A DNA stretch of 64,000 bases from an uncultured Clostridia bacterium (lineage in GTDB: Bacteria; Bacillota; Clostridia; Oscillospirales; Acutalibacteraceae), in NCBI GenBank assembly GCA_945863885.1, contig CAMAZY010000009.1, forward strand, positions 1-64,000, given 5' to 3'. The notes beneath the pieces were generated by a model that was given only the letters and a program-made list of their open reading frames with translations, had not been told where the DNA came from and made no database searches. A program made the translations under genes and the position numbers. Within the stretch, counting starts at the first letter, position 1; every line of letters begins with the position of its first letter. This document shows positions 1 to 57,097 of the stretch, one piece after another.

Positions 1-13
1 AACCGAGTTGACC

Positions 14-56
14 CGCGACCACAACTATTCATTATTCACTATTCATTATTCATTAC
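14..56. repeat. end of a dispersed composite repeat (ATTCATT tract)
   Basis: A CGCGACCACAA block is followed by a short tandem ATTCATT/ATTCACT tract. The same pairing of block and tract recurs near 13387-13433, 36488-36528 and 56525-56570, where it forms the end of the large composite repeat described there. Here only this end lies inside the window. Confidence 0.6.
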
Positions 57-7262: not shown

Positions 7263-7309
7263 GTGTTTCACCTCTTGTAAATTTGGCAGTTTCCTGTTAT
7301 TATATACTA

Positions 7310-7471
7310 GGCAATCTCTAAAAACATCCCGACATTCGGCATAATGCCCAACTAATGCCGTCTTTGTCGTTAAAAAACCTTGAAATACATAAAGTATTCC
7401 TGCGGTTTTTTGCCTAAAATTCGACATCATTTGGACACTATGCCAAACGCCTTGAGTTTTTAGAGGTTGCC
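7310..7471. mobile_element. 162-bp MITE-like element, GGCAACCTCTAAAAAC ends
   Basis: The left end GGCAATCTCTAAAAAC is matched by the right end GTTTTTAGAGGTTGCC in inverted form. A close second copy lies at 30432-30592 and an internally deleted copy at 62704-62778. Leftward the interior carries an open frame beginning MMSNFRQK, which lengthens the neighbouring hydrolase frame artificially. It lies between the divergently transcribed esterase and trmB. Confidence 0.75.
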
Positions 7472-7506: not shown

Positions 7507-8181
7507 ATGAGAATGAGAAGAAAAAAGAACCTGCAGTCAAGGCTTGATAACTGCCGTGACTATGCGGTTGATATTGTCTGGGAAACGCTCGAGTACGGAA
7601 AGACGCCCGAAAAGCACATAATAAACTATGAAGATATATTTTCGAACGAAAATCCGGTTGAGCTTGAGATCGGCTGCGGAAAAGGGCAGTTCGCCGTTGA
7701 GATTGCCAAAAGAAACCCCGACAAAAATTTTCTTGCCGTTGAGATAAACGAGAATGTCATCGTACAGGCGATGGAAAAAGCGAAAAAAGAGGGGCTTTCC
7801 AATCTTAAATTTATGAGGGTCGGAGCGGAAAAGCTTGATCTTTATCTTCCCGAAAATTCGATTGAAAGAATTTATCTCAATTTCTCCTGTCCGTTTCCGA
7901 AAAAAAGGCAGGCCAAGCACAGGCTGACGCATGAAAGCTTTCTTGAAATTTATAAGAAAATTTTAGTTTCGGGGGGCAGAATTATACAAAAGACGGACAA
8001 CAGAATTCTTTTTGAATCCTCAATCGAACAGTTTTCCAAGTGCGGCTTCGTTCTTGAAAACGTGTCGCTTGACCTTCATAACAGCGGAGACACCAAGGAC
8101 AATATCATGACAGAATACGAGTCCAAGTTTGTTGCCCTCGGTCAGCCGATTTACCGGCTTGAAGCTTTTGTCAGACCGTAA
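7507..8181 (+). CDS. trmB: tRNA (guanine-N7-)-methyltransferase
   Basis: This SAM-dependent enzyme makes m7G at position 46 of tRNA. Its 224 residues fit the family. The SAM motif VELEIGCGKGQFAVEIA lies near residue 54, LAVEINENVI near 77, and the TrmB signature is seen as IYLNFSCPFPKKRQAKHRL near 120. The block ending MTEYESKFVALGQPIYRLE matches the family C-terminus. It starts 36 bases after a miniature element, with GAGAGG before the ATG, and is followed by repeats, so it is probably monocistronic. Confidence 0.95.
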   Translation: MRMRRKKNLQSRLDNCRDYAVDIVWETLEYGKTPEKHIINYEDIFSNENPVELEIGCGKGQFAVEIAKRNPDKNFLAVEINENVIVQAMEKAKKEGLSNLKFMRVGAEKLDLYLPENSIERIYLNFSCPFPKKRQAKHRLTHESFLEIYKKILVSGGRIIQKTDNRILFESSIEQFSKCGFVLENVSLDLHNSGDTKDNIMTEYESKFVALGQPIYRLEAFVRP

Positions 8182-8383
8182 GTGAGTCGATAAAATCATA
8201 ACACAGCGGCGACTTAAAATCAATCAAAATATTTCTGTTTGTTGATTTTGGCGGGGAAGTCTAAGTGTAGAGGGCAGAAGTCAGACGGTGTGATGGTTGG
8301 TTGATTTCTTATTGACAGCTTGTTTTCCGAACATTTTTGCCAACAGGCAAATAAACCCAAGGGAGAAGCCAAACAAGCCGTCC

Positions 8384-8582
8384 CCTTTGGGGAAGGTGGC
8401 GGCGAAGCCGACGGAAGGGGCAAGCTAAGCAGAATTTAACTGGGTACTGACGGTGAGCGGGGACTCCCTCAGTCACTGCGTGACAGCTCCCTCAAAGAGG
8501 GAGCTAATTATCATCGACCTGAAAGAAAAGTAATTTAGCCTCCCTCGTGAGGGAGGTGGCGGCGAAGCCGTCGGAGGGAGTA
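8384..8582. repeat. three short palindromic repeats (GAGGGAG / GTCACTGCGTGAC type)
   Basis: The stretch holds CCCCTTTGGGGAAGGTGG with GGCGAAGCC and GACGGAAGGGG (8380-8418), CTCCCTCAGTCACTGCGTGACAG with CTCCCTCAAAGAGGGAG (8465-8504) and CCTCCCTCGTGAGGGAGG with GGCGAAGCC (8541-8582). Each can fold into two consecutive hairpins. The second has a near copy at 54627-54668. The preceding bases 8182-8383 hold an imperfect hairpin near 8212-8253 (AAAATCAATCAAA against TTTGTTGATTTT) that may end trmB transcription. Confidence 0.6.
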
Positions 8583-8586
8583 AGCC

Positions 8587-8803
8587 AAGGCGGCCGGGTG
8601 CGGCGAAGCCGCACGTTTTGCGTGCCGTCGGCACGCAAAACACAAAGCCGTCAGGCTTTGTCGGCCGCCGTCCCGCCTCCGGCTGTATTTTCCCCGAAGC
8701 CGCTCAGGTTCCCGTCACTTATAATCTACAAGCTTCCCGTTACGCAACTGCCGTTTCTGCGGGCAGAAGCTTCCTTTTTTGCGCAAAGGTAATCCGCGAC
8801 CAC
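8587..8803 (+). repeat. composite structured repeat, copy 1
   Basis: The core at 8589-8669 has an outer stem GGCGGCCG / CGGCCGCC enclosing three hairpins: GTGCGGC-gaa-GCCGCAC, GTTTTGCGTGCC-gtc-GGCACGCAAAAC, and ACAAAGCC-gtca-GGCTTTGT. A conserved tail follows with CACTTATAATCTACAAGCTT, a CCGTTTCTGCGG block and CGCGACCAC. After that come the short repeats of the type AACATCCAACATC up to about 8836. Full copies lie at 13414-13638, 36281-36492 and 56562-56773. Confidence 0.8.
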
Positions 8804-8879
8804 TTCTAACATCCAACATCTAAAATCCAACATCTTTATGCCCGAAAGAAAAAATCAACCGCTACCATAGGAGGGAACC

Positions 8880-12483: not shown

Positions 12484-13335
12484 ATGTTTAACCATGAAAA
12501 TCTCAAAGGAAGAGTTGCTGTTGTCACAGGAGGCGGCGGTGTATTATGCGCCGCATTCGCCAAGACGCTCGCAAAGCAGGGCGTAAAGGTTGCCGTGCTT
12601 GACCTAAACGAAGAAGCGGCGAAAAAGGTCGCTGACGAAATCAACGCCGACGGCGGAACAGCGATTGCCGTCGCCTGCAACGTACTTGAACCCGAAAGCA
12701 TGAAAGCGGCAAGAGAAACGGTCAACGAAGCCTTAGGCACCTGCGACATTCTTTTAAACGGCGCCGGCGGCAACAATCCGAAGGGCACCACCACAAAAGA
12801 AACGCTTGAAAAAATCGACCTTGTGAATAAGGATGACAGCATCAAGACCTTTTTCGATCTTGATCCGCAGGGAATTTCCTTTGTTTTCAACCTCAATTTC
12901 CTCGGAACGCTGATTCCGACGCAGGTTTTTGCCCGTGACATGGCCGAAAAGGAAAACTCCTGCATCGTGATGATTACCTCCATGAACGCTTACCGTCCGC
13001 TGACCAAGATACCGGCGTATTCGGCGGCTAAGGCGGCGGTGCAGAACTTTACGCAGTTTATGGCGGTACATTTCGCCGAGGTCGGAATCCGAGTCAACGC
13101 CATCGCTCCGGGCTTCTTCTCAACCAATCAGAACAAGGCCCTTTTATGGAACGAGGACGGCACACCGACCGCAAGAACGGGCAAGATTCTTGCCGCAACG
13201 CCGATGAACCGGTTCGGCGAACCCGAAGAGCTGGAAGGAGCGCTTTTGTTCCTTTGCGACGAGGCGTATTCTTCGTTTATCACCGGCACGACGATTGCTG
13301 TTGACGGCGGCTTTAATGCGTACTCGGGAGTGTGA
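12484..13335 (+). CDS. SDR family oxidoreductase, D-mannonate oxidoreductase-like
   Basis: This NAD(P)-dependent short-chain dehydrogenase has 283 residues. The cofactor motif is VVTGGGGVLCAAFAKTLAK near residue 14, the NxAG block is LLNGAGGNNPKG, the catalytic Ser is in VMITSMNAY and YxxxK is in AYSAAKAAV near 180. The insertion after the NxAG block (LEKIDLVNKDDSIKTFFDLD) and the ending AVDGGFNAYSGV are typical of the fructuronate/mannonate oxidoreductase subgroup of SDRs, recalled from family knowledge. No uronate genes adjoin it, so the substrate is uncertain. It may be co-transcribed with the wall genes (32-base gap, AAAGGA before the ATG). The stop codon falls within a 23-bp tandem repeat. 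Confidence 0.82.
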   Translation: MFNHENLKGRVAVVTGGGGVLCAAFAKTLAKQGVKVAVLDLNEEAAKKVADEINADGGTAIAVACNVLEPESMKAARETVNEALGTCDILLNGAGGNNPKGTTTKETLEKIDLVNKDDSIKTFFDLDPQGISFVFNLNFLGTLIPTQVFARDMAEKENSCIVMITSMNAYRPLTKIPAYSAAKAAVQNFTQFMAVHFAEVGIRVNAIAPGFFSTNQNKALLWNEDGTPTARTGKILAATPMNRFGEPEELEGALLFLCDEAYSSFITGTTIAVDGGFNAYSGV

Positions 13336-13377
13336 TGCGGTGCGGAGCACCTATGTGATGCGGTGCGGAGCACCTAA
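13332..13377. repeat. 23-bp direct repeat, two units
   Basis: Two units beginning GTGATGCGGTGCGGAGCACC lie back to back, at 13332-13354 and 13355-13377. Each can form a small hairpin (GGTGCGGAGCACC). The first unit contains the stop codon of the SDR gene. Similar short hairpin modules stand at the edge of the composite repeat near 35940-35990. Confidence 0.7.
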
Positions 13378-13386
13378 ATGAATAAT

Positions 13387-13638
13387 GAATAATGAATAGT
13401 GAATAATGAATAATTGTGGTCGCGGGTTTACCCTGTACCAAAGGAAAGCTCCCTCCCGCAGAGGTGGTTTGTTCGCTGAGGGAAGTTTGCAGATTATAAG
13501 CGCTGGGAAGTTGGGCTGCCTTCGGGTGAGCTTCTTCCAAAGGCGGGACGGCGGCCGACAAAACCCTTTTTGGGGTTTTGTTTTTGTCGCTGCCGCAGGC
13601 AGCGGCAAATGTGCGGCTTCGCCGCACCCGGCCGCCTT
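13387..13638 (-). repeat. composite structured repeat, copy 2
   Basis: Read leftward, the core at 13550-13636 has the GGCGGCCG / CGGCCGCC outer stem and hairpins GTGCGGC-gaa-GCCGCAC, CGCTGCC-tgc-GGCAGCG with flanking TTTG/CAAA-type pairing, and ACAAAACCC-caaaaa-GGGTTTTGT. The tail with TTATAATCTGCAAACTTCCC, CCCGCGACCACAA and the ATTCATT tract ends at 13387. Confidence 0.8.
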
Positions 13639-13639
13639 G

Positions 13640-13803
13640 CTTCCCCGTCGGAACCGGGGGCGGTGAGATTGCCGGCTCCCCGGCACTTATCATCAGCGGT
13701 TTTCCCGATTCGGAAAATCCGCTTGTGCGGGGACAGCTTTCCTCCGCAACGGCGTCAGGACGCGACCTTTTCTAACATCTGACATCTAAAATCCAACATC
13801 TAA
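13640..13803 (+). repeat. partial diverged copy of the composite repeat tail
   Basis: A second, rightward tail is recognisable: CACTTATCATCAGCGG, a hairpin GCGGTTTTCC-cgattc-GGAAAATCCGC, then GACGCGACC and TAACATCTGACATC/TAAAATCCAACATC. It lacks the three-hairpin core. It ends just before the ribosome site of the next gene. Confidence 0.5.
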
Positions 13804-19281: not shown

Positions 19282-19298
19282 GAAAAAAGCGTTAAAAC

Positions 19299-19382
19299 TT
19301 CCTACGTCGGCATTATCCGCATCAGGTTAAGGGTCAAAGACTTTGGTCTTTATCTCAGCCGAGCTACATCAGCACCCCTGTT
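19299..19382 (-). promoter_or_regulatory. TPP (THI-box) riboswitch
   Basis: Read leftward, the aptamer contains GGGGTGCTGATGTAGC, GGCTGAGATAAAGACC, then GACCCTTAACCTGATGC and GGATAATGCCGACGTAGG. These are the conserved CUGAGA, ACCUGA and GGAUAAUGCC-G-AGG elements of the thiamine pyrophosphate riboswitch. It lies upstream of the thiamine-binding/permease/binding-protein/ATPase operon and should switch it off when TPP is plentiful. Confidence 0.97.
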
Positions 19383-19394
19383 TGATTTGATTTT

Positions 19395-22950: not shown

Positions 22951-23492
22951 AAAAGATACTTTCGCTGATTTTATGCGCCGTGTTGCTGTTGGTACCGCTC
23001 GCTCCCTGCGTTTCTGCCGCAACCGAAGCGGACACCGGCTTTGGCCCGAAAGACGGAATCGAGTATTTTGAGGACGGCTCCTTTTTGGTCGTCGGTATTC
23101 CGGAAGAAATGGAGAGTACCGTTTCTCTTTCCTTTTTGCTGAAGCTTCTGAATCTGATGAAACGGCTCTTCGCCTTGCTTTTTCCCGATCGGCCGTTGAC
23201 GGTGTCCAAAACCAAATCTGCCGAATATTTCGATGCCAACGGAAAAGGCTTGTGGATGATTTCTCTTACTGCCGATTTTACCTATAACGGCAAAACGTCC
23301 GCTTGCACAAACGCAAGAGTTACTTATAAAATTTACGATTCCGACTGGAAAAACATTTCGTCCTCCTGCTCGAAAAGCGCAGCGACCGCAACCGGTACAT
23401 TTTCAATGCGGCAGTATAAATTAGGCGTACCGCTTAAGCTGATTGAAAAAACGCTGACGCTGACCTGCGATGCAAACGGAAAGGTTTCGTAA
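22947..23492 (+). CDS. secreted protein of unknown function, paralogue A
   Basis: This 181-residue exported protein has a signal peptide (KKILSLILCAVLLLVPLAPC, cut near residue 25), an acidic segment with GIEYFEDGSFLVVGIPEE, a basic helix (LLKLLNLMKRLFALLF) and a C-terminal beta domain (SAEYFDANGKGLWMISLTA onward). The last 73 codons are identical in DNA to those of the next gene. The start overlaps the preceding stop (ATGA). The beta domain, with NGKTSACTNA and YKIYDSDW, resembles a secreted domain common in gut Clostridia, but no function is known. Confidence 0.75.
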   Translation: MKKILSLILCAVLLLVPLAPCVSAATEADTGFGPKDGIEYFEDGSFLVVGIPEEMESTVSLSFLLKLLNLMKRLFALLFPDRPLTVSKTKSAEYFDANGKGLWMISLTADFTYNGKTSACTNARVTYKIYDSDWKNISSSCSKSAATATGTFSMRQYKLGVPLKLIEKTLTLTCDANGKVS

Positions 23493-23494
23493 TG
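23271..23494 (+). repeat. 224-bp perfect direct repeat, first copy
   Basis: Bases 23271-23494 are identical to 23867-24090 (offset 596). The repeat covers the 3' end of both paralogous genes up to and including the stop codon plus one base; upstream parts of the two genes differ clearly. Confidence 0.95.
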
Positions 23495-23545: not shown

Positions 23546-24088
23546 ATGACCCGTACGAAAAGAATCATTTCCATGCTTTTGTGTGCCGTTCTGCTGTTGG
23601 TTCCTTTTGCGCCCTTCGTTTCAGCTGAAAACGGGGTCAAACCGGGAGCGGGAGTCGAGTATTTCGAGGACGGTTCCTATCTGGTGTTCGATATTCTTGA
23701 AGAAGAAGCGTACACCTCGGCGACCTTTTTGCAAAAGCTTCTGAACCTGTTAAAAAAGATTTTCGCTTTTTTGCGTCCCGAACCGGCGCAACAGACCGTG
23801 TCGAAAACCAAATATGCCGAATATAACGACGCAAACGGAAAACGCCTGTGGAGTATTTCGCTTTCCGCCGATTTTACCTATAACGGCAAAACGTCCGCTT
23901 GCACAAACGCAAGAGTTACTTATAAAATTTACGATTCCGACTGGAAAAACATTTCGTCCTCCTGCTCGAAAAGCGCAGCGACCGCAACCGGTACATTTTC
24001 AATGCGGCAGTATAAATTAGGCGTACCGCTTAAGCTGATTGAAAAAACGCTGACGCTGACCTGCGATGCAAACGGAAAGGTTTCGTAA
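23546..24088 (+). CDS. secreted protein of unknown function, paralogue B
   Basis: This 180-residue exported protein has the same plan as the previous one: signal peptide (MLLCAVLLLVPFAPFVSA), the GVEYFEDGSYLVFDILEE segment, a basic helix (LLNLLKKIFAFL) and the C-terminal beta domain. The C-terminal DNA is identical to that of paralogue A, while the first 105 residues have diverged. The ATG at 23546 follows AAAGGAGGG; the frame opens further upstream, but that part lies in the spacer after gene A. Confidence 0.75.
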   Translation: MTRTKRIISMLLCAVLLLVPFAPFVSAENGVKPGAGVEYFEDGSYLVFDILEEEAYTSATFLQKLLNLLKKIFAFLRPEPAQQTVSKTKYAEYNDANGKRLWSISLSADFTYNGKTSACTNARVTYKIYDSDWKNISSSCSKSAATATGTFSMRQYKLGVPLKLIEKTLTLTCDANGKVS

Positions 24089-24090
24089 TG
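23867..24090 (+). repeat. 224-bp perfect direct repeat, second copy
   Basis: Identical to 23271-23494. The sharp change from diverged to identical sequence inside both genes points to recent gene conversion or unequal exchange. Confidence 0.95.
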
Positions 24091-30415: not shown

Positions 30416-30431
30416 TGCTGTATAATATAGA

Positions 30432-30592
30432 GGCAACCTCTAAAAACATCCCGACATTCGTCATAATGCCCAACTAATGCCGTCTTTGTCGCCCCAAATC
30501 CTTGAAATACACAAAGTATGTCTACGGATTTTTGCCTAAAATCCGACATCATTTGTGCATTATGCCAAACGCCGTGCGTTTTTGAGTTTGCC
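30432..30592. mobile_element. 161-bp MITE-like element, GGCAACCTCTAAAAAC ends
   Basis: This is a second copy of the element at 7310-7471, with the same order of internal blocks (ACATCCCGACATTCG, AATGCCCAACTAATGCCG, GCCTAAAATCCGACATC). Its right end is decayed (GTTTTTGAGTTTGCC) and is followed by a direct repeat of TTTGCCTATATAA. Leftward it also carries an open frame beginning MMSDFRQK. Confidence 0.75.
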
Positions 30593-35935: not shown

Positions 35936-36160
35936 GCACACCTTCGGTGCATGAAGCGGCGCAGAGCGCCATGAAGCGTGCCCGGTGAGATATCAGACAT
36001 CAGAAGTCAGAGGTCAGAAATCGGGCCGGTTTATGACGGCAAAATGAAGCGTGGGGACATTGCGGTCGCGGCGCACCGATTCATGAAGCAATAATTTTTA
36101 CCCGCAGAGGAAGCGTTCCCCTGCGGGTAGTTTGTTGATGATAAGTGACGGAAAGTGTTA
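35936..36160. repeat. short hairpin modules and degenerate composite-repeat tail
   Basis: The stretch holds small hairpins (GCACACCTTCGGTGC, GGCGCAGAGCGCC), each preceded by ATGAAGC, short CAGACATCAGAAGTCAG direct repeats, and ACCCGCAGAGGAAG/CCTGCGGGTA, which resembles the tail of the composite repeat read leftward. No gene is seen. Confidence 0.45.
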
Positions 36161-36161
36161 G

Positions 36162-36279
36162 ACCCCTCTGTCGCCCTGCGACATCTCCCCTTTCAGGGGA
36201 GAATCATTATACAACTAACTTGATGAAAAATTTTTCTCCCCTGAAAGGGGAGATGTCAGCTTTGCTGACAGAAGGGTTC
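36162..36279. repeat. two-armed palindromic repeat (CTCCCCTTTCAGGGGAG type)
   Basis: The left arm reads ACCCCTCTGTCGCCCTGCG then ACATCTCCCCTTTCAGGGGAGA. The right arm is its near-complement, TCTCCCCTGAAAGGGGAGA then TGTCAGC...CTGACAGAAGGGT. The spacer is about 38 bases and contains AACTTGATGAAAAA. A second complete copy lies at 56776-56894 and single arms at 54780-54836 and 55340-55402. Confidence 0.7.
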
Positions 36280-36280
36280 C

Positions 36281-36526
36281 AAGGCGGCCGGGTGCGGCGC
36301 AGCCGCACATCAGCCGTTGCCGTTGGCAACGGCTGATACAAAACCGTAGGTTTTGCCGGCCGCCGTCCGGCCGTAGGCAGAGGCCTGCCCGAAGCCACCC
36401 GACTTTCCGACACTTATGATCTACAAGCTTCCCGACACAAAAAAGCCGTTTCTGCGGCCGACGGCTTCCCTTTAGCACCGTGTCCCCCGCGACCACAATT
36501 TTTCATTTTTCATTCTTCATTTTTCA
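36281..36526 (+). repeat. composite structured repeat, copy 3
   Basis: The core at 36283-36364 has the GGCGGCCG / CGGCCGCC outer stem and the hairpins GTGCGGC-gca-GCCGCAC, ATCAGCCGTTGCC-gtt-GGCAACGGCTGAT and ACAAAACC-gta-GGTTTTG. The tail has ACACTTATGATCTACAAGCT, GCCGTTTCTGCGGCC, CCCGCGACCACAA and a TTTTTCATT tract, which ends by the terminator of the ACP operon. Confidence 0.8.
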
Positions 36527-36533
36527 TTAAAAA

Positions 36534-54257: not shown

Positions 54258-54596
54258 AAGACTTGTAAAAGTTTTAGTTTGTCGGTCGCGTGGCGACTCC
54301 AATGCCGGGGTGCACGGTACTTGATTGAAAGTTGAGTGCCCGAGCCGGTCGCAGGGCTACACCAATCCCGGGATACATCGTACTTAATTGAAAGTTGACT
54401 GCCCGAGCAATTAGATGAGTTGTAAATTTTAGTTTGTCGGTCGTGTGACGACTCCAAATTCCGGGTCAGTCGGTGCTATGTTTTTGCCTGACTGCCCGAG
54501 CCGTTAGATGAGTTGTAAATTTTAGTTTGTCGGTCGTGTGACGACTCCAAATTCCGGGTCAGTCGGTGCTATGTTTTTACCTGACTGCCCGAGCCG
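54258..54596 (-). repeat. tandem array of a structured repeat (93-bp period)
   Basis: Four units lie head to tail: diverged units at 54258-54346 and 54347-54410, then two 93-bp units at 54411-54503 and 54504-54596 that differ at one position. Read leftward each has GCTCGGGC, a variable middle, CCCGG-ATTGG and then GTCG-N5-CGAC with AAACTAAAA. CGGG/CCCG and GTCG/CGAC can pair in most units. A fifth copy lies at 64-148. No convincing gene is present. Confidence 0.75.
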
Positions 54597-54626: not shown

Positions 54627-54668
54627 CACTCCCTCAGTCACTTCGTGACAGCTCCCTCAGAGAGGGAG
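54627..54668. repeat. short palindromic repeat (GTCACTTCGTGAC / GAGGGAG)
   Basis: CTCCCTCAGTCACTTCGTG then ACAGCTCCCTCAGAGAGGGAG forms two adjacent hairpins and is a near copy of 8465-8504. Confidence 0.65.
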
Positions 54669-54779
54669 CCAAATCAGGATATCAAGTTGTTACATTTTCG
54701 CTATTGCTGGAAAGCCGCATATCGCCGCCGGAAAAAGGCAACGCAGGAGAGGAACCGGGCGGCAGAGGGAAGGGAGAAA

Positions 54780-54836
54780 CCCCTCTGTCGCCCTGCGACA
54801 TCTCCCCTTTCAGAGGAGAAAAATATTTCATCAAGT
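54780..54836. repeat. single arm of the CTCCCCTTTCAGGGGAG-type repeat
   Basis: CCCCTCTGTCGCCCTGCGAC followed by ATCTCCCCTTTCAGAGGAGA and ATATTTCATCAAG repeats the left arm found at 36162-36205. Confidence 0.65.
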
Positions 54837-56524: not shown

Positions 56525-56773
56525 TGAATGAAAAATGAAGAATGAAAAATGAAAAATTGTGGTCGCGGGGGAGACGGTGCGAAAGGATAGTCGGCGGCCG
56601 CAGAAACGGCTTTTTTCCGGCGGGAAGCTTGTAGATTATAAGTGACGGGAACCTGAGCGGCTTCGGGGGAAGATTCAGCCGGAGGCGGGACGGCGGCCGA
56701 CAAAACCTGCGGTTTTGTATTTGCCGTGCCTGCGGCACGGCAAACGTGCGGCTTCGCCGCACCCGGCCGCCTT
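56525..56773 (-). repeat. composite structured repeat, copy 4
   Basis: Read leftward, the core at 56692-56771 has the GGCGGCCG / CGGCCGCC outer stem and hairpins GTGCGGC-gaa-GCCGCAC, TTTGCCGTGCC-gca-GGCACGGCAAA and ACAAAACC-gca-GGTTTTGT. The tail has CACTTATAATCTACAAGCTT, GCCGTTTCTGCGGCC, CGCGACCACAA and a TTTTTCATT tract. Confidence 0.8.
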
Positions 56774-56775
56774 GT

Positions 56776-56894
56776 GACCCCTCTGTCACTTCGTGACATC
56801 TCCCCAAAAGGGGAGAACCCTTATATAAGAAGCTTGATGAAATATTTTTCTCCCCTTTTGGGGAGATGGCGGCATCAGCCGTCAGAGGGGTTTC
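56776..56894. repeat. two-armed palindromic repeat (CTCCCCTTTTGGGGAG type)
   Basis: ACCCCTCTGTCACTTCGTGAC and ATCTCCCCAAAAGGGGAGA on the left face TCTCCCCTTTTGGGGAGA, TGGCGGCATCAGCCGTC and AGAGGGGT on the right. TATAAGAAGCTTGATG lies in the spacer. The remaining bases to 57090 hold another TTTTTCATT tract near 56973 and nothing else recognised. Confidence 0.7.
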
Positions 56895-57097
56895 TCGATG
56901 ACCGTCAGAATAAAACTATATTTCTGATTAGCTTGCCCCTCCCGTCAGACTGTGTTTGTCACCTTAATTTTTCATTTTTCATTTTTCATTTTATCTGTCC
57001 TAAAGTTATTTTAAGCCTATCCGATAGAATTATAAAAGGAATATAGTGCAGGAGGCGGGAATATCTTTCAGTGAATTGAAAAATTTTTGTTATACTA

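Follow-up and report, generated by a model that had tools for sequence, protein, structure and literature searches.

In the window, a stretch of 64,000 nucleotides from the genome of an uncultured Clostridia bacterium (G000; assembly 97.97% complete), an intergenic element occurs in four copies. Each consists of a cloverleaf core, a conserved tail of about 120 nt after the core and a tandem array with a period of seven nucleotides; three of the four are in addition flanked 5' by an inverted array. Of ten ORFs near the copies that were scanned against Pfam, nine matched ordinary families and one matched none; no mobility gene was among them. The features are as follows:

2–55, plus strand: terminal module with an array (CCCGCGACCACAACTATTCATT...) at the start of the window
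8587–8669, plus strand: cloverleaf core of copy 1 (outer stem 8589–8596/8662–8669; hairpins 8598–8614, 8615–8641 and 8642–8661)
8670–8803, plus strand: conserved tail of copy 1, ending in CGCGACCAC
8804–8835, plus strand: period-7 array of copy 1, TCTAACA type
13375–13415, minus strand: period-7 array of copy 2, TATTCAT type
13416–13549, minus strand: conserved tail of copy 2
13550–13638, minus strand: cloverleaf core of copy 2
13639–13801, plus strand: opposite inverted terminal module of copy 2, with CGCGACC at 13761 and a different type of period-7 array
35985–36145, minus strand: opposite inverted terminal module of copy 3, with a period-7 stretch, GCGGTCGC near 36062 and GATGATAAG
36281–36364, plus strand: cloverleaf core of copy 3
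36365–36496, plus strand: conserved tail of copy 3
36497–36529, plus strand: period-7 array of copy 3, TTTTCAT type
56526–56558, minus strand: period-7 array of copy 4
56559–56691, minus strand: conserved tail of copy 4
56692–56773, minus strand: cloverleaf core of copy 4
56963–56994, plus strand: opposite inverted period-7 array of copy 4

The core is a four-way junction, in which an outer stem of 8 bp encloses three hairpins, most of them with loops of 3–4 nt. An earlier, sequence-only reading had placed all four copies correctly, with their strands, and had put the core at 80–87 bp, which agrees with the 81, 87, 82 and 80 bp measured from outer stem to outer stem. Its observation that hairpins 2 and 3 vary in sequence among these copies and keep their pairing was also confirmed. 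Folded as DNA, each of the four copies gave a three-hairpin cloverleaf of −39 to −44 kcal/mol, with z-scores of −7.9 to −10.2 against dinucleotide shuffles, and none of the 200 shuffles per copy equalled it. The end coordinates originally proposed had to be revised, as the repeat runs on into the period-7 array and in three of four copies has an inverted array 5' as well. The core, taken at first for a stand-alone unit, turned out to be a module within a longer repeat of mobile appearance.

Several other repeats lie in the same window. Palindromic repeats of the CTCCCTCAGTCAC / CCCCTCTGTCAC kind were found at 8381–8589, 36150–36203, 54628–54820 and 56776–56820, several of them abutting the 5' end of a cloverleaf. 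A dispersed repeat of about 170 bp is present at 7309–7461 and 30431–30583 (88% alike), with more copies in contigs C26, C6 and C11 of the same genome (92–94%) and in G020, a sister species (89–92%). A direct repeat of 297 bp (95% identical, spacing 596 bp) occupies 23198–23494 and 23794–24090, and the stretch 54269–54581 consists of tandem-like units, each about 93 bp long, with AATTTTAGTTTGTCGGTCG.

A covariance model was built from 15 copies, as the sequence-only reading had proposed, and run on related genomes. In G000 it gave at least 44 matches among the 150 of 2666 first-look candidates that were scored, many of which simply fall on the opposite strand of another match. Instead of the four copies first counted, this genome contains at least 25 strong copies (57 bits or more, sense strand), a lower bound because 150 of the 2666 candidates were scored. 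At E ≤1e-10, 39 sense copies were retained over 33 stretches, at least 25 in G000 and at least 14 in G020, with a few weaker copies below this line. Under stricter filters and with 73 candidates scored per genome, six of 59 genomes had a match at E ≤0.001, strong copies being confined to G000 and G020 and none being found in the other 32 genomes of the genus. Weak look-alikes of the core appeared in G004, G018, G024 and G033.

The tail was said to follow the core always and in conserved form. Its motif CACTTATAATCTAC is exact in just two of the four window copies, but GCGACC or GCAACC is present in 38 of the 39 copies, 111–118 nt beyond the 92-nt core match, and the tail is also found elsewhere on its own, with no core. 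In 28 of the 39 copies a period-7 array starts 122–148 nt after the core match, and in about 9 of the 39, judged by eye, the 5' side too carries an inverted array. The TATTCAT, TTTTCAT, TATTATC, TTACGCA and TCTAACA types of array are common to various copies, yet differ between some orthologs, and the units on the two sides of a copy are unlike in some cases (13375 versus 13768). Among arrays with periods of 4 to 12, period 7 was commonest in samples of G000, G033, G018, G004 and G028; the samples of G016 and G031 contained few period-7 arrays and that of G043 none. GGTCGC or GGTTGC was found within 22 nt of the array end at 8 of 30 ends in G000 and 3 of 40 in G033 (two ends per array), and at 1/34 in G018, 1/18 in G004, 1/28 in G028, 0/6 in G016 and 0/4 in G031. 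A role of the arrays as all-frame stop cassettes on the gene strand was considered and rejected: it fits TAATGAA, GATAATA and TAATGCG but fails for units like GGGAACA or TGCAAAA in sister species.

The outer stem had been called invariant. It reads GGCGGCCG/CGGCCGCC in all four window copies but varies across the family: at the outer-stem pair 9/100, 28 of the 38 distinct rows have C-G and 10 have U-A, loci L027 and L101 have GGCGCTCC/GGAGCGCC, and in two ortholog pairs GGCGGCCG/CGGCCGCC of G000 stands against GGCGGCTG/CAGCCGCC of G020.

Covariation was assessed on an alignment of the 39 copies (38 distinct rows), which was fitted to the model and is hence biased towards structure. In this alignment 94.1% of paired cells were able to pair, compared to 85.7% in shuffles; 98 cells were changed on both sides (shuffles 23.4) and 21 pairs showed two-sided change (shuffles 9.6), and none of 500 shuffles matched any of these three values. 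When the partner was shifted by one to three columns, only 3 to 18 two-sided cells were left. Since related rows inflate two-sided counts, a tree-based null was used in which column changes were re-evolved on the tree, a home-made version of the R-scape idea put forward in the sequence-only reading. Nine of 35 structural pairs reached E <0.05 over the structure; when all column pairs were considered, significance was reached by three structural pairs but by none of the 3832 others, and the eight top-scoring column pairs were all structural.

Seven copies lie at the same place in G000 and G020, the tail-side flank confirming all seven and both flanks five. Between these orthologs, two-sided changes left 11 base pairs still paired and 6 broken, and one-sided changes left 3 still paired and 14 broken. 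Very tight constraint is disfavoured because of the broken pairs, which partly reflect alignment register in hairpin 2. The inference first drawn from compensatory change, selection on a folded nucleic acid, stands insofar as the covariation is real in the larger alignment, but covariation does not separate RNA from DNA.

The fold was also searched for with a letter-blind descriptor, in its strict form requiring an outer stem of at least 7 bp, hairpin stems of at least 6 bp and gaps of up to 3. It matched four times in the window, once in G000 (400 kb), five times in G033 (400 kb), four times in G018 (200 kb) and twice in G004 (100 kb), and not at all in G043 (200 kb, another family) or in G016, G031 and G028 (100 kb each). 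The G033, G018 and G004 samples were not blind, as weak model matches were seen there beforehand; five of their 11 cloverleafs are these matches and six are new. Every strict match has exactly three hairpins, and three shuffles of each sample yielded one two-hairpin match and no three-hairpin match. When the thresholds were lowered to 6 and 5 bp, there were 14 three-hairpin, 8 two-hairpin and one four-hairpin matches (three shuffles: 1, 16 and 1), so that the rule of exactly three blurs at this setting.

The cloverleaf fold recurs in three sister species with largely different letters. Outer stems are GGGCGAAG or GGGCGAGG in G033 and CGGCGGCGAAA or CCGGGCGAGC in G018, and the hairpin TGCGGC-GAA-GCCGCA is present in all five G033 cloverleafs and in one of the four from G018. 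In G033 the cloverleafs of different sequence lie at L127, L128, L133, L135 and L140. Three of these five (L133, L135 and L140) are units of 112–124 bp inside TGCAGGAG...CTCCTGCA inverted ends. Several cloverleafs of the sister species lie, by eye, just beyond a terminator-like hairpin.

Presence and absence of the element were followed at the L033 site, where the span between two aligned gene flanks was read in 15 relatives. G020 has the cloverleaf element as in G000. The site is without insert in G007 (10 bp), G016 (16 bp) and both G014 and G023 (22 bp). Two relatives have array-edged inserts of other kinds: that of G002 is 248 bp with AAATGCAAAGTGCAAAATGC...TTGTGGTCGCGG and TTCTGCATTCTGCATT, and that of G030 is 323 bp with GAGGAAT-type arrays and GCGACC. 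Other sequence of 48 to 171 bp fills the site in G008, G003, G013, G031, G006 and G027, and in G025 and G033 a single flank was found. Elsewhere, a 160-bp array-edged element of G020 corresponds to 7 bp in G000, and downstream of the gene at 12484–13335 no element was seen in the 250 bp read in six relatives. The region of copy 1 (8165–8869) measures 703 bp between aligned flanks in G000 versus 96 bp in G020, but this block is composed of several different repeats. Empty sites in relatives, a hallmark of miniature elements of the MITE kind, were found for both the cloverleaf element and the array-edged element, and several species of the genus have array-edged insertions with empty sites. Inspection of the aligned empty sites by eye revealed no recognisable target-site duplication. 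The seven copies common to G000 and G020 indicate that mobility is not recent everywhere.

Copies tend to lie at the ends of genes. By a crude longest-ORF caller, 35 copies were scored and four went unscored; in 26 of the 35, the nearest ORF of at least 150 aa on the tail side has its 3' end towards the element (p = 0.006); at 200 aa or more the count was 24 of 33. In two of the unscored copies, the orthologous L033 and L077, the gene start faces the tail, and with these counted the ratio is 26 to 11.

The sequence-only reading had not recognised the element as a named RNA, and no Rfam family spans the core. Over the whole window at the gathering threshold, the sole match was a TPP riboswitch, located at 19282–19389 on the minus strand. 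Among copies at other loci, Gut-1 alone reached its gathering score, beside two copies and not on the core, and at E up to 1 (six loci and one stretch) the core was overlapped solely by sub-threshold eukaryotic or unrelated families. Gut-1 (RF01706) lies just past the GCGACC end on the opposite strand at L035 (1730–1803) and L065 (1291–1364), in G000 and G020; in at least two copies the plain array is replaced by Gut-1 hairpins with 7-nt linkers. According to excerpts of PMC2864571, this RNA was reported in 2010 solely from human gut environmental sequences. The resemblance to the element lies in this gut origin and in the place that Gut-1 takes after the GCGACC end in at least two copies; it differs in being three tandem hairpins with 7-nt linkers on the other strand and not a closed cloverleaf.

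A match to the Y1/IS200-type transposase (PF01797) or to a reverse transcriptase (PF00078) was found nowhere in the 97.97%-complete assembly of G000, which makes both the REP/RAYT and the retro-element route unlikely in this genome. Membership of the RAYT-driven REP/REPIN repeats was rejected on the first of these results, and derivation from a group II intron, retron or DGR on the second. An origin from phage or plasmid was discarded after one copy, used as query, gave no match in phage or plasmid records; exact patterns of the element had no match in viral contigs. REP sites contain one or two hairpins. The cloverleaf element shares with REP/REPIN and RAYT systems its nature as a hairpin-bearing intergenic repeat at gene 3' ends, but has three hairpins and a host genome without a Y1 transposase match.

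MITEs and other small mobile intergenic repeats of bacteria are outlined in PMC10969869, PMC2759123 and PMC2229807. As they are outlined there, the element is like them short, non-coding, dispersed and intergenic, with empty sites and, in some copies, what look like inverted ends. Unlike them it is edged by period-7 tandem arrays rather than one inverted repeat, shows no duplication that could be seen, has no parent transposase among the families sought (PF01797 and PF00078) and keeps a four-way junction more in shape than in letters. Arrays of the heptamer TAACTGA, as summarised in PMC4679880, are likewise intergenic with 7-letter units; there, one fixed unit is found mostly near start codons, and the abstract and outline make no mention of array pairing around an insert.

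Array-edged inserts in this genus are linked to a second gene family. An array-edged insert in G028 contains a four-helix-bundle ORF (TIGR02436, E 5.9e-30), for which one solved chain, 2rld, was matched. The corresponding Pfam family, PF05635, has 109 matches in 32 of the 34 genus genomes. A non-random set of 50 of these 109 was surveyed (the top match from each of 30 genomes and 20 chosen in addition), and period-7 arrays within 260 bp of the IVP gene were found on both sides in 33, on one side in 5 and on neither in 12, the last including five loci from G033 and two from G006. The four IVP genes of G000 had arrays on both sides once (L243), on one side twice and on neither side once. The arrays that flank a gene are inverted copies of each other, with a mean identity of 0.85 (at least 0.8 in 28 of 33), compared with 0.545 between loci and 0.52 when taken in direct orientation. 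Of 4000 random intervals, 6 were flanked by arrays on both sides. These figures show that inverted arrays and IVP genes are associated but do not establish a mechanism, and no IVP gene was observed within a cloverleaf element. At L243 (G000, contig C22, 29600–31100) the IVP gene lies just beyond the tmRNA gene, between two copies of a unit of about 120 bp, which has inverted period-7 arrays within it; the IVP genes of L240 and L245 in the same genome follow tRNA genes.

Intervening sequences of 23S rRNA with an S23p/IVP ORF have mutually complementary ends and are termed a selfish element in excerpts of PMC4990558. Compared with what is described there, complementary ends are a shared trait, many IVP genes of the genus lying between inverted period-7 arrays; the cloverleaf element differs in lying outside rRNA and in showing no IVP-like ORF in its copies. 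In the titles and opening lines of abstracts of the papers found on intergenic repeats, hairpin and cruciform DNA, and IVP/IVS, neither the element nor the link between arrays and IVP genes is described.

The element is repeated and dispersed, is present or absent at orthologous sites and has a covarying fold, and its edges are like those of other insertions in the genus. We consider it probable that the element, which is about 240–480 bp long, is intergenic, non-coding, mobile and non-autonomous, and acts as folded DNA. It seems to belong with a class of small insertions that have 7-letter repeats at their edges and have been little described.

A structured RNA, transcribed most likely from the bottom strand as the 3' UTR of the neighbouring gene and serving as 3'-end protector, processing site or sRNA, is a rather unlikely alternative, although it would account for the compensatory base pairs. 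Folding as RNA is strong and gave the cloverleaf on the top strand of all four window copies and on the bottom strand of both copies tried, the tail side meets a gene 3' end in the 26 of 35 scored copies given above, and at L035 and L065 the bottom strand carries Gut-1, a catalogued RNA, directly past the tail. In a fold selected as RNA, G-U is expected to exceed A-C on the working strand. The G-T and A-C mismatches numbered 10 and 7 without hairpin-end pairs (p = 0.63) and 16 and 14 with them; being about equal, they carry no strand signature of the kind an RNA would leave. The 114 hairpin loops, read on the top strand, comprise 60 GNA, 13 GNNA, 2 TNC and 39 others. The GNA loops do not lie on the strand of the facing gene, which again argues against RNA. 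GNA loops and GCGAAGC are unusually stable in DNA, and one study of mini-hairpin DNA reportedly includes the GCGAAGC motif in its text; GCAA and GTAA loops suit RNA too. In addition, several copies are located, by eye, beyond a terminator-like hairpin, where poor transcription is therefore expected, and presence or absence across species at one site also counts against an RNA. The loops and the G-T and A-C counts are too small in number to serve as proof of DNA, and the evidence leans towards a cloverleaf that acts as folded DNA rather than RNA.

The same mismatches, having no RNA-like bias, would suit a neutral upkeep of palindromes, in which template switching or quasipalindrome correction copies one arm to the other and maintains a shape without function or selection. 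Arm-length changes matched on both sides point the same way. This account is unlikely, as it explains neither the loop bias nor the presence of exactly three hairpins within the outer stem in all strict matches of G000, G018, G033 and G004.

REP/BIME sites have been proposed to bind gyrase or IHF. That the cloverleaf element is such a chromosome-organisation or transcription-boundary element, maintained because it serves the host and not through its own spread, would agree with its intergenic position near gene ends and with the seven copies at the same place in two species, but is very unlikely given that this sequence form occurs in 2 of 34 genus genomes (73 candidates scored per genome) and that other inserts occupy the same site in other species.

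For the mobile element acting as folded DNA, movement in trans with the folded strand as mark is the likeliest mechanism. The cloverleaf belongs to a unit whose 3' edge, and in some copies both edges, are formed by a period-7 array beside GCGACC/GGTCGC. The top strand, bearing the GNA loops, may fold when exposed in replication or when extruded as a cruciform, and the folded strand could then be a mark bound by a protein supplied in trans, which would move or copy the element. The four-helix-bundle IVP protein is one candidate for this role. Placement near gene 3' ends may reflect the positions where harm is least.

A wider proposal, which we regard as tentative and rather doubtful, is that of a new kind of mobile element defined by inverted 7-letter arrays with a GGTCGC-type motif. 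Its full-length members would carry the IVP gene as mobiliser or end-binder, the cloverleafs would be non-autonomous passengers recognised by their shape, and the 7-letter unit would vary freely between genomes, even between orthologs.

Outside named RNAs, it is rare for a fold to persist across species although most of its letters have been replaced, and here such a fold occurs in small DNA insertions that have empty sites. Should a protein read this shape, the element would represent a mobility system that recognises shape and has no known transposase. Through the link between arrays and IVP genes, the function of the four-helix-bundle IVP family of 23S rRNA, an old question, becomes directly testable, and if the IVP reading is true, this orphan family would gain a job as mobiliser or end-binding protein.
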